A DNA stretch of 64,000 nucleotides from Bryobacterales bacterium. Its GTDB lineage: Bacteria; Acidobacteriota; Terriglobia; Bryobacterales; UBA6623. Below are positions 35,249 to 59,196 of this stretch, piece after piece. Location: the NCBI GenBank assembly GCA_028819575.1, contig JAPPLB010000050.1, positions 1 through 64,000 of the forward strand, read 5' to 3'. The position numbers and the translations under genes are program-made. The notes beneath the pieces were generated by a model. It ran no database searches. It saw only the letters and a list, made by a program, of their open reading frames with translations, and was not told where the DNA came from. Every line of letters begins with the position of its first letter. Positions within the stretch are counted from its first letter, which is position 1.

Positions 35249-35449
35249 CCTGCATTTCTCACCACCCGACGGTCGAAGCACGCCATATGGCCGCCATGAC
35301 TTCGTTACGCTTGCTTGCCGTGCTCAACGTACTGTTCAAGTACGCCTGCGCGCGCCAAGCGGCTCGCGCCTTTTTCCTCCGCCCGGCTTGCGCCTCGTCC
35401 TGACAGCCCTCTCACGCACTTCGCCTCGCCACGTGGTGAGAAATGCAGG
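35249..35449 (-). repeat. TIR element family B, complete long form (201 bp)
   Basis: cctgcatttctcaccac ... gtggtgagaaatgcagg; inverted relative to 19639 copy; carries an extra about 24-bp internal block (caagccgggcggaggaaaaaggcg). Confidence 0.88.
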
Positions 35450-38827: not shown

Positions 38828-38932
38828 GGTCAAGAATCACAGCCTTTACGATTCACCGGCCGTCAGACATTTCTTCTGGAGCGAACCAACCTCCCGCCGA
38901 TGTTTTTCACGAGACACGAATCACGGCTTTTC
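38828..38932 (+). repeat. Composite heptamer element (short form)
   Basis: caagaatcacagccttt - about 65-bp spacer - gtttttcacgagacacgaatcacggctttt; same layout as 57792-57917. Confidence 0.8.
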
Positions 38933-39844: not shown

Positions 39845-39875
39845 CACAAGGCACGAATCACGAATCACGGCCTTT
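39845..39875 (+). repeat. Heptamer array
   Basis: cacaagg-cacgaat-cacgaat-cacgg ccttt. Confidence 0.75.
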
Positions 39876-39908: not shown

Positions 39909-39961
39909 GTTTTTGAATCACGAGACACGAATCACGGCTTTTTGACACCAATCACGGCCTT
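39909..39961 (+). repeat. Heptamer array plus second terminus
   Basis: gtttttgaatcacgagacacgaatcacggctttttgacaccaatcacggcctt. Confidence 0.75.
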
Positions 39962-40686: not shown

Positions 40687-40715
40687 GTCACGAATCACGG
40701 CCTTTCAAATCACGG
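40687..40715 (+). repeat. Heptamer element, minimal
   Basis: tcacgaatcacggcctttcaaatcacgg. Confidence 0.6.
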
Positions 40716-40795
40716 GCTCACTCCCCGCCAAACCGTAGGACTTTCGCCGAAAGCCGCAGCCGCCTGCGCCACGCATCACGAAACACGGACCTTGG

Positions 40796-40844
40796 GGTTT
40801 TCGCATCACGAATCACGAGACACGAATCACGAGACACGGCTTTT
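40796..40844 (+). repeat. Heptamer array
   Basis: ggttttcg-catcacg-aatcacg-agacacg-aatcacg-agacacg-gctttt. Confidence 0.88.
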
Positions 40845-42233: not shown

Positions 42234-42281
42234 TTTTTGGGGTCACGAATCACGAAACACGAATCACGAGACACGGCCTTT
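42234..42281 (+). repeat. Heptamer array overlapping 3' end of permease gene
   Basis: tttttggggtcacgaatcacgaaacacgaatcacgagacacggccttt. Confidence 0.85.
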
Positions 42282-48513: not shown

Positions 48514-48763
48514 GGGTTCTCCTTCCGCCGGGTTTCCTGACTAGCCGTTCCGGCTTTCGGCTTCTGTTTCAACCAACACTGATAAGACGCACAGGGTTGC
48601 TGGGACGTTAGCAGAAAGACGGTTAAATCGAAGTAAAAGCAGGCTTTACATCGTCTTTACAAGAGAGAGAACAGGGCGGGTTTACCTGAATCATCCCCCA
48701 GGTCAAGCGGCATTGACACCAGTCCGGCGGTTTCCCGCTCGTATGATCCGCACGCGGGCGGCG

Positions 48764-48792
48764 AAAAACTAAAAACTAGAAACTAAAAACTG
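48764..48792 (+). repeat. Heptamer array, AAAAACT type
   Basis: aaaaact-aaaaact-agaaact-aaaaact-g. Confidence 0.85.
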
Positions 48793-48805
48793 ATGTGAAT
48801 GCATC

Positions 48806-49384
48806 TCAGCGAAGCCGTTCGTACTGCTCGGGAAGGTCGACGTCGCAGAGAACGCCCGCGTCGTCCACGTCCACGAACAACGTCCGGTCGCGATGCGACC
48901 GAATCACGTCTTTCGCCGACGACTCGGGACCGAGTGCGAGGATCTCGTCAAGCACCTGGCGATTTACGATCACCGGATGACCGCGCCGGCCGCCGTGGAG
49001 GGGAATGGCGATGAGCGGTCTTGCCTTCTCCCACTCGCCGATGAGGATCTCGACGGTCTCCTCCGCCACGGCCGGGTGATCGACCAGCGTAAACAGCGTC
49101 GCTTCCGTGTCCGGCGGCAACTCACGGATTCCCGTCTGGAGCGAAGTCAGCATCCCGGCCTGGTAGTTCGTGTTCACGACCACCCGGGGGCCGCTCGGAA
49201 CCGCTTGCCGAATGGCGTCCGCGTGATGCCCGAGGACGACAACGAGAGGTTCCACTCGCGGCTCCAGCAGCGTGATGATGCGTCCCAGGAAGGTCGTCCG
49301 GCGGTACTCCAGCAAGGCCTTGTCTCGGCCCATGCGTCGAGACTCGCCGGCGGAGAGGATGATGCCGGCGGGCTTGCGGCTCAA
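48806..49384 (-). CDS. MobA-like NTP transferase (molybdenum cofactor cytidylyl/guanylyltransferase)
   Basis: GIILSAGESRRMGRDKALLEYR; VDHPAVAEETVEILI. Confidence 0.88.
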   Translation of the reverse strand: MSRKPAGIILSAGESRRMGRDKALLEYRRTTFLGRIITLLEPRVEPLVVVLGHHADAIRQAVPSGPRVVVNTNYQAGMLTSLQTGIRELPPDTEATLFTLVDHPAVAEETVEILIGEWEKARPLIAIPLHGGRRGHPVIVNRQVLDEILALGPESSAKDVIRSHRDRTLFVDVDDAGVLCDVDLPEQYERLR

Positions 49385-49387
49385 AGG

Positions 49388-50317
49388 TCAGCTTTTGCGC
49401 AGCGACGGGAGTTTCGCCGGCAGCGGCTCAGCGGAATCGCCTGAAGGAGTTGCGGATTCCTGGGGCGCGTGGATTTGCAGCGCCTTCGGAATGCCTTCGG
49501 CGAAGATCGACTTCGAGTTGGGGTTCCACTCGTGGCCGGGATTGCGGCGGCGTTCGATCATTTCGCTCACCACCGCGACGGCAATCTCCTCCGGCGTGAT
49601 CGCTCCGATGTCGAAGCCCATCGGCGCGTGCAGGCGGGAGAGCTGCTCGACGGGAATGCCTTCCTTGATGAGATGCTTGGCCACTTCGAGGGTCTTGCGC
49701 TTGCTGCCGATCATCCCGAGGTAACGGGCCGGAGTCGTCACCGCCCAGCGCAGCACTCGCATGTCATCGCGGTGACCTCGAGTAACGATGATGATGTAGC
49801 TCGCCTCGTTCACTTCCAGTTTCGGGAAGATGGTCTCGTATTCGTCGGCATGCACTTCCGCCGCTTCGGGGAACCGCTCTCGGTTCGCGTACGTTTCGCG
49901 GTCGTCGACGATCACCGTCCGGAAGCCGGCCAGCGTGGCGACTTTCGACAGGCTCTTCGAGATGTGGCCGGCGCCGCAGATGTAACAGGTGGGAATGGGG
50001 AGTATCGGTTCCACGTATACGTTCAATTGCCCCCCGCAGATGAGCCCCTGGTCGTAGGCGGCCTGCTGGCCGAGGTTGAAGTTCAGCATGCGAGGTTTCT
50101 CGGTCTCCATCACCTCGCGCGCGGCGTTCCACACTTCGGCTTCGGTGCATCCCCCGCCGATCGTGCCGACCATCGAGCCATCCTCGCGGACCAGCAGCTT
50201 CGCGCTCTGAAAACTGGGTATCGATCCGGCTACCTCGACGATTGTCGCCATGGCGGCTTTCTTGCCGGAACGCCGCAGGTGCACAAGCTCTTCGTAGACG
50301 TCTGTCGGACGGCCCAT
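49388..50317 (-). CDS. XdhC/CoxI family protein
   Basis: ATIVEVAGSIPSFQSAKLLVREDGSMVGTIGGGCTEAEVW; ICGAGHISKSLSKVATLAGF; GSKRKTLE. Confidence 0.92.
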   Translation of the reverse strand: MGRPTDVYEELVHLRRSGKKAAMATIVEVAGSIPSFQSAKLLVREDGSMVGTIGGGCTEAEVWNAAREVMETEKPRMLNFNLGQQAAYDQGLICGGQLNVYVEPILPIPTCYICGAGHISKSLSKVATLAGFRTVIVDDRETYANRERFPEAAEVHADEYETIFPKLEVNEASYIIIVTRGHRDDMRVLRWAVTTPARYLGMIGSKRKTLEVAKHLIKEGIPVEQLSRLHAPMGFDIGAITPEEIAVAVVSEMIERRRNPGHEWNPNSKSIFAEGIPKALQIHAPQESATPSGDSAEPLPAKLPSLRKS

Positions 50318-50405
50318 AACGTTGTCGCTCGATGGCTCATTATAATACGGGGCTGTTTTCGACCCGTCCGACCCGTCGTTTCCTCCGACAGCCGAGGTGA
50401 GTCCC

Positions 50406-51440
50406 ATGAAGGCCGTTCGCATCCATGAGCATGGTGGTCCGGAAGTTCTCCGCTACGAGGACGCCCCCGAGCCCGCCTTGCGCGCCGATGAGGTGCTCAT
50501 CAAGGTGGGAGCCTGCGGGCTGAATCACCTCGACCTGTTCGTTCGCGGCGGCCTGCCCGGACTGAAGCTCGACATGCCCCACATCCTCGGCAGCGACGCG
50601 GCCGGAGAAATCGTCGAAGTCGGAGCCGCCTGCGATTCCGCCAAGGTCGGGGACCGCGTGCTCATCGCGCCGGGCAAAAGCTCGCGCCGCGGGGCGATGG
50701 CGGCCGCCGGACTCGACAACCTCAGCCGCGACTACGGGCTCTTCGGCTACCAGTACACCGGGCTGAACTCGGAATACATCGCCGTACCCGAAGTGAACGC
50801 GCTTCCCATTCCCGGCGGACTGAACTACGCGGAAGCGGCCTCGGTCCCGCTCGTCTTCCTCACCGCGTGGCACATGCTGGTCGGCATTGCGAAGATCAGG
50901 ATGCTCGAAGACGTGCTGGTCGTCGGCGCAAGCTCCGGTGTCGGAATCGCCGCCGTGCAGATCGCCAAGCTGTTCCACTGCCGTGTGATCGCGACGGCCG
51001 GCGGCGAAGAAAAGATGGCGAAAGCGCAAGAGCTGGGCGCCGACCACGTCATCGACCACTATCGGCAGGACATCCGCGCCGAGGTGAGGGCAATCACCCG
51101 GAAACGCGGCGTCGATATCGTCTTCGAGCACGTCGGCCAGGCTACCTGGAAGCATTCCGCAGCCAGCCTGGCGCATAACGGACGCCTGGTGACCTGCGGC
51201 GCCACCACCGGCGGTGAAGTCGGCCTGAGCGTGCACCATCTCTTTTTCCGCCAATTGTCGCTGCACGGCTCGTTCATGGGGACCATGGGCGAGCTGTACG
51301 AGGTCCTTCGGTTTTTCGATCGGGGTTTGCTGAAGCCCGTCGTCGACAAGGTCTTCCCGCTCTCCGAACTCCGCGCCGCCCACGAGCACCTCGAAAACAA
51401 GCGCCAGTTCGGCAAGGTGGTAGCAGCCCCCTCCGTCTGA
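50406..51440 (+). CDS. Zinc-type alcohol dehydrogenase/quinone reductase family (MDR)
   Basis: MKAVRIHEHGGPEVLRYEDAPEP; VVGASSGVGIAAVQIAKL. Confidence 0.9.
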   Translation: MKAVRIHEHGGPEVLRYEDAPEPALRADEVLIKVGACGLNHLDLFVRGGLPGLKLDMPHILGSDAAGEIVEVGAACDSAKVGDRVLIAPGKSSRRGAMAAAGLDNLSRDYGLFGYQYTGLNSEYIAVPEVNALPIPGGLNYAEAASVPLVFLTAWHMLVGIAKIRMLEDVLVVGASSGVGIAAVQIAKLFHCRVIATAGGEEKMAKAQELGADHVIDHYRQDIRAEVRAITRKRGVDIVFEHVGQATWKHSAASLAHNGRLVTCGATTGGEVGLSVHHLFFRQLSLHGSFMGTMGELYEVLRFFDRGLLKPVVDKVFPLSELRAAHEHLENKRQFGKVVAAPSV

Positions 51441-51509
51441 TCCGGCCTGCACGTCTCGCCAGCTCGCGAGACAAAGTGCAAGCGGATCACAAATCAGGGC
51501 TTTAACTAG

Positions 51510-51540
51510 CCACTATCCACTAACCACTAACCACTGCTTT
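51510..51540 (+). repeat. Heptamer array, CCACTAA type
   Basis: ccactat-ccactaa-ccactaa-ccactg-ctttt. Confidence 0.88.
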
Positions 51541-51583
51541 TAAGGTTTTTCACGAGACACGAATCACGAATCACGGCTTTTTC
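51541..51583 (+). repeat. Heptamer array, CACGAAT type
   Basis: taaggttttt-cacgaga-cacgaat-cacgaat-cacgg-cttttt. Confidence 0.88.
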
Positions 51584-51764: not shown

Positions 51765-51949
51765 CCTTCATTTCTCACCACGCGGCGAGGTGAAGTGCGT
51801 GAGAGGGCCGCCAGGACCAGGCGCAAGCCGGGCGGAGGAAAAAGGCGCGCAACATGGCTTTTAAGGTTTTTCACGAATCACGAGACACGAATCACGAATC
51901 ACGGCTTTTTTATCGCGTGTTTCGGCCGTCGGGTGATGAGAAAGGCAGG
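51765..51949 (+). repeat. TIR element family B with heptamer array as its centre
   Basis: ccttcatttctcaccacgcggcgagg... left half; array 51854-51911; right half atcgcgtgtttcggccgtcgggtgatgagaaaggcagg. Confidence 0.85.
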
Positions 51950-55549: not shown

Positions 55550-55690
55550 CCTGCATTTCTCACCACGCGGCGAGGCGAAGTGCGTGAGAGGGCCGTCAGG
55601 ACTAGGCGCAAGCTGGGCGGAGGAAAAAGGCGCACGGCGCAAGCCAGCGCGAATTCCGAGGTTTTCACGAAACACGAATCACGGCTTTTA
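55550..55690 (+). repeat. TIR element family B left half followed by heptamer array
   Basis: cctgcatttctcaccacgcggcgaggcgaagtgcgtgagagggccgtcagg...ggaggaaaaaggcgc then gttttcacgaaacacgaatcacggctttt. Confidence 0.85.
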
Positions 55691-57791: not shown

Positions 57792-57917
57792 CTCAAGAAT
57801 CACGAAACACGGCCTTTAAGGTTCACTGGCCGTCAGGCATTTCTTCTGGAGCGAACCAAGCCCCCCGCCAATGGTTTTCACGAAACACGAATCACGAGAC
57901 ACGAATCACGGCTTTTT
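57792..57917 (+). repeat. Composite heptamer element (long form)
   Basis: caagaatcacgaaacacggccttt - spacer - ggttttcacgaaacacgaatcacgagacacgaatcacggcttttt. Confidence 0.88.
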
Positions 57918-59148: not shown

Positions 59149-59196
59149 TGTAAGGTTTTTTTTACGAATCACGAGTCACGAAACACGAATCACGGA
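59149..59196 (+). repeat. Heptamer array
   Basis: gtaaggttttttttacgaatcacgagtcacgaaacacgaatcacgg. Confidence 0.8.

Follow-up and report, generated by a model that had tools for sequence, protein, structure and literature searches.

The locus at positions 48,764 to 51,583 of the window, that is, of the whole 64,000-nucleotide stretch of DNA analyzed here, raises the question of why three different heptamers (CACGAAT, CCACTAA, and AAAAACT) are repeated in tandem with one exact 7-bp period and, in part, within the same edges. An earlier note on this DNA regarded the three heptamers as unrelated and attributed the period and the boundaries to a copying machinery able to change its template. All quoted strings of the three arrays are present in place and lie far above chance: at a strict threshold, the window contains five segments of period-7 or period-14 arrays, against approximately 0.03 or fewer per period in 30 Markov simulations, and CACGAATCACGA is matched 40 times with at most two mismatches, against 8.2 expected, a number reached in 0 of 100 shuffles. 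The draft genome holding the window (G000, 5.37 Mb) was compared with two sister genomes of the same genus, G001 and G002, with G000 and G002 representing array-rich sister species of ~94% identity. Statistics for G000 were drawn from 0.8–1.9 Mb of stretches, picked in part for array content, and genes in this sample were called by a simple in-house caller.

The features of the window are listed in Table 1 and include 13 CACGARW-type arrays, every one of which lies on the plus strand. The CCACTAA array was described as running directly into a CACGAAT array with a shared terminus, which is borne out by the linker GCTTTTAAGGTTTTT joining both. The claim of constant edges holds for the CACTANY and CACGARW arrays but fails for the AAAAACT array, which ends in CTGATG, belongs to another module, and has no GCTTTT. 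The genes adjoining the three arrays are ordinary and encode a MobA-like transferase, XdhC, a zinc dehydrogenase, and an ABC transporter.

Table 1. Heptad arrays and associated features in the window, and loci of mixed-class arrays
Feature	Position or locus	Strand	Remark
REP-like module (ggtcaagcggcattgacacc...atgatccgcacgcgggcggcg)	48701..48763	+	precedes AAAAACT array; similar modules elsewhere
AAAAACT-class array	48764..48791	+	AAAAACT AAAAACT AGAAACT AAAAACT, then G
CACTANY-class array	51505..51535	+	terminus CACT-G
Linker GCTTTTAAGGTTTTT	51536..51550	+	combines the right edge of the CACTANY array with the left edge of the CACGARW array
CACGARW array	51551..51576	+	3 units + CACGG
IS1380-type MITE with array inside	51765..51949	+	target duplication TTAG/TTAG
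GCTTTTAAGGTTTTT, second copy of 15-nt linker	51857..51871	+	within MITE, precedes another CACGARW array
CACGARW array	51872..51904	+	within MITE; 4 units + CACGG
CACGARW array	40807..40839	+	4 units + CACGG
CACGARW array	42244..42276	+	4 units + CACGG
CACGARW array	57879..57911	+	4 units + CACGG; G002 orthologue with differing units
4-unit array	59163..59195	+	TACGAAT as first unit
CACGARW array	38908..38926	+	2 units
CACGARW array	39852..39870	+	2 units
CACGARW array	39919..39937	+	2 units
CACGAAT unit	40689..40700	+	one unit + CACGG
2-unit array	40770..40788	+	CACGCAT as first unit
CACGARW array	55666..55684	+	2 units; next to MITE arm beginning at 55550
2-unit array	57794..57812	+	G002 orthologue has 3 units
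Mixed-class arrays	L168, L182, L192, L208, L210		

The dominance of the 7-bp period extends well beyond the window. A census of intergenic arrays in 776 kb of G000, with Markov shuffles as control, yielded 28 arrays of period 7, eight of period 14, five of period 24, and at most two of any other period, such that period 7 or 14 accounts for 36 of the 52 intergenic tandem arrays, whereas the shuffled sequences contained none. Other periods are thus not equally common. The five loci with the 24-bp intergenic repeat GCGCCTTTTTCCTCCGCCCGGCTT, a module present inside MITEs as well, are L041 5710-5763, L061 80-125, L063 1914-1967, L069 1345-1398, and L073 5930-5983; period-10 intergenic arrays are rare in G000 and were observed at L071 16420-16474 and L077 14865-14910 (CCACGATTTC; GAACAATGGC). 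The exact pattern CACGARWCACGARWCACGG is matched 333 times in G000 and 339 times in G002, not at all in G001, and zero to one time in 38 other relatives. Intergenic location applies to 106 of 112 arrays and the CACGG terminus to 101 of 112. Being tandem 7-nt units that are mostly intergenic, overrepresented, and dispersed genome-wide, the arrays belong to the bacterial intergenic heptanucleotide tandem repeats. Arrays are usually preceded by GGTTTT and followed by CCTTT or CTTTT, and the recurrent cassette GGTTTT-(CACGARW)1-4-CACGG-CCTTT, to which the GCTTTTAAGGTTTTT edge belongs, occurs alone, within other repeat modules, or inside an IS1380-type MITE of ~177 bp. The shared flanks are accordingly found at many sites across the genome rather than at two.

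The three heptamers are classes of one unit, because mixed arrays of AAAAACT, CACTAAC, and CACGAAT units exist and keep frame inside GGTTTT...CACGGCCTTTT edges; these mixed arrays rule out the treatment of the classes as unrelated sequences. Each unit comprises a 4-nt core (ACGA, ACTA, or ACTG) and three variable nucleotides, in the register ACGA+NNN, ACTA+NNN, and ACTG+AAA, and all three heptamers fit this 4+3 family. CACTANY or RRAAACN units would form sister classes in an identical 7-nt register. Overlapping matches to CACTANY arrays number 31 in G000 and 20 in G002, those to AAAAACT arrays 21 and 22, respectively, and neither pattern occurs in G001. In both G000 and G002, the AAAAACT arrays mostly occupy a REP-like module of their own, as does that of the window, and the G002 orthologue of the module in the window carries one AAAAACC unit only.

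The composition of the arrays is narrowly constrained. CACG cores are spaced by 7 nt in 787 pairs and by 14 nt in 559, with 48–128 pairs at other spacings, and the trinucleotides between cores are AAT (299), AAA (214), AGA (181), and AGT (26), with these four types making up 720 of 787. Arrays with the right edge CACGGC?CTTT contain one unit in 36 cases, two in 36, three in 26, and four in 84, as against only two arrays with more than four, one of five units and one of seven, the latter arising from an internal duplication of three units. Among 64 four-unit arrays with the TTT edge, 28 different unit orders are found. Furthermore, in ten orthologous arrays of G000 and G002, the core diverges by 0.8% (1/120), the flanks by 13.9% (73/524), and the two variable bases by 29% (14/48), the differences from the flanks being significant for the core (p = 4e-6) and for the variable bases (p = 0.01), although the core value is biased downward since the G002 arrays were chosen for intact cores, and only ten orthologues could be aligned. 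Copy number between orthologues shifts by whole units. The idea of a period and edges imposed while the template changes is therefore upheld insofar as both are constant and unit content changes within them, also at the same site between sister species, but not insofar as it involves a dedicated copying enzyme.

The MITE that carries part of the cassettes is ~177 bp long (mode 177), has CCTGCATTTCTCACC as its ends, and is flanked by YTAR target duplications; 1263 end matches occur genome-wide, and 114 complete paired elements in 1.5 Mb. An IS1380-family element (C121:8857-10580), singled out by a Pfam search, has the same left end as the MITE, CTAG/CTAG duplications, and a transposase matching NF033539 (E 3e-115), and it likely mobilizes the MITE. 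A local paired-end scan for an autonomous parent returned many false pairs spanning genes and was set aside. With inverted ends common to the IS1380 element, short length, and target duplication, the MITE is IS1380-derived; it resembles other IS1380-family MITEs in its terminal inverted repeats and 4-bp YTAR duplications and differs in that a heptad cassette is present in a minority of copies and also occurs outside MITEs. Arrays lie inside 43 of the 114 complete MITEs, and many arrays lie outside complete MITEs. A complete MITE of 201 bp without heptamers is found at 35249-35449 of the window. In G001, the MITE is present without heptamers, and one MITE-free array immediately precedes a start codon; therefore, the cassette and the MITE are separate things. 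Much of the identity of the shared edges is nevertheless inherited along with repeat modules, the IS1380-type MITE among them.

Array orientation follows the chromosome. Neighboring arrays in different intergenic regions of G000 have the same orientation in 98 of 116 cases (18 opposite), as do 43 of 50 in G002 (seven opposite), and neighboring MITE arms in G000 are co-oriented in 80 of 95 cases (15 opposite), these counts being based on neighboring pairs that are not fully independent. Orientation has no link with the strand of the adjacent gene (++52, +-44, --42, -+41), its relation to GC skew is uninformative (p 0.11), and a weak co-direction is found with genes within 15 kb on each side (p 0.035). 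None of four housekeeping genes sought as leading-strand markers was matched in 1.9 Mb of G000 with approximate query sequences. A replication-linked process possibly causes the co-orientation. MITEs without arrays are also co-oriented with their neighbors (26 same, 6 different in a 1.5–1.9 Mb sample of G000), which is unexpected for a derivative of a DDE transposon.

Given the anatomy, unit set, ceiling, core conservation, and orientation of the arrays, the three arrays are interpreted here as one heptad cassette family, made up of recombining cassettes with a selected core that may act as a binding platform, an interpretation to which we give an approximately even chance. The cassettes would be carried by the IS1380-type MITE as well as by several further modules, and would also stand alone; their unit content would be rewritten via recombination or template switching among the numerous copies in the genome, and 7-nt units would be gained or lost locally, within a fixed unit set and with at most four units per array. 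The strict core, the fast variable letters, and the chromosomal orientation suggest selection on a motif at the DNA level, most probably a platform offering several protein-binding sites at a pitch of 7 nt. Against the recombining cassettes, spread within one genome leaves the shared unit classes of distant phyla unexplained, and for the GGGNATC arrays of Xanthomonas, Rehm et al. (PMC4692102) report no leading/lagging preference. Ordinary polymerase slippage, by which 7-bp microsatellites grow and shrink, a mechanism put forward for long simple sequence repeats, would account for the whole-unit changes between orthologues, for the single AAAAACC of G002 opposite four units in G000, and for the duplication within the seven-unit array, and it agrees with the general heptamer excess in prokaryotes. 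However, under slippage the units should be identical and array lengths should trail off in a tail, whereas the arrays are mostly heterogeneous, with three to four unit types, and stop at four, and their core resists mutation. The small alphabet, length limit, conserved core, and orientation weigh against an account by plain slippage alone, which we consider unlikely.

A passive role, in which the arrays only fill MITEs and other modules and owe their spread to transposition alone, would fit the presence of arrays in 43 of the 114 complete MITEs and the greater number of units in common among arrays with a common left module (36% of units differ vs. 52%); this is quite unlikely, considering the many arrays outside complete MITEs, the separation of the two elements in G001, and a core conservation far exceeding that of the flanks. 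A dedicated machine (a reverse transcriptase, RAYT, or terminal-transferase-like enzyme) writing heptads from an exchangeable template would explain the interchangeable units within a fixed period and edges and their replacement at orthologous sites. The searches advised by the earlier note nevertheless speak against it: the Y1 transposase (Y1_Tnp, PF01797) is absent from G000 and G002, which separates the arrays from REP/RAYT systems, and is present nine times in the nearly array-less G001; the sole reverse transcriptase of G000 is the maturase of a group II intron, and no heptamers lie beside it; and no candidate template RNA was found, with Rfam returning only a tRNA on the window. Such a machine is very unlikely, and the broader proposal of a widespread dedicated system that writes and rewrites intergenic heptad arrays, drawing on few permitted units and keeping array length limited and chromosomal orientation constant, is equally hard to credit. 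An RNA-level signal controlling translation or transcript ends, a role suggested for the TAACTGA repeats of Beggiatoaceae, is extremely improbable: some arrays in other taxa, and the one in G001, directly precede start codons, but the G000 arrays have no orientation bias to neighboring genes. With slippage inadequate and a writing enzyme unsupported, recombining cassettes with a selected core are therefore favored.

Exact CACGARW arrays also occur in Xanthomonadaceae, other Proteobacteria, Bacteroidales, Chloroflexota, and further groups, and in Xanthomonadaceae and Gastranaerophilales the arrays often form inverted pairs around intergenic filler. A Caldilineaceae genome (Chloroflexota) contains all three classes, with CACGAAT arrays, 67 CACTANY matches (control 0), and 75 RRAAACT matches (control 0); a long heptad array in the same family (L310, from 1778) keeps ACTG constant while the other three positions of each unit vary strongly (ACTGNNN). 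Very similar MITE or cassette modules in bins of other phyla (L151, Rhodothermales; L088, Chloroflexi APA_bin_2; L099, Latescibacterota) reflect either transfer among community members or mis-binned contigs.

Heptamers outnumber all other tandem repeats in the intergenic DNA of many different prokaryotes, and a survey covering 7006 genomes states that there is no clear indication of what they do (PMC6344855). The GGGNATC and GGGGA(Y)T repeats of Xanthomonas and Nostoc (Rehm et al., 2015; PMC4692102) are likewise 7-nt and intergenic, with four units commonest, degenerate units conserved at positions 1–4 and 6, and some inverted pairs; by contrast, they have a G-rich quadruplex-forming core and reach 26 units, no leading/lagging preference was reported for them, and the consulted passages describe no cassette or MITE. 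No G-tract of at least three occurs on either strand of CACGARW, CACTANY, or RRAAACN, which sets these units apart from quadruplex-forming GGGNATC. The Xanthomonas consensus GGGANTN given by Rehm et al. fits the 4+3 scheme, a comparison made in the present analysis. The TAACTGA repeats of Beggiatoaceae (MacGregor, 2015; PMC4679880) are also intergenic heptads shared with unrelated phyla, in the register ACTG+ATA, but their units are nearly invariant and mostly lie just upstream of start codons; the present arrays have other units and no gene-orientation bias. The STRRs of cyanobacteria and the long simple sequence repeats of Mrazek et al. (2007), as excerpted in PMC4679880 and PMC4692102, share the intergenic period-7 excess and differ in being defined by period only, with no ceiling, alphabet, or edges in those excerpts. 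The Geobacter metallireducens elements are multicopy and comprise four tandem heptads, but have the consensus GGACCGG and occur within genes too (PMC2700814). The four-unit ceiling, the small unit set, the contrast between core and variable divergence, and the chromosomal co-orientation were not found in published accounts. The repeat class is thus already known, and the G000 arrays are an unusually ordered variant of it, present in hundreds of copies, built from few unit types, sharply limited in length, and oriented by the chromosome, constraints that make binding and rewriting testable in sister species close enough for direct comparison.
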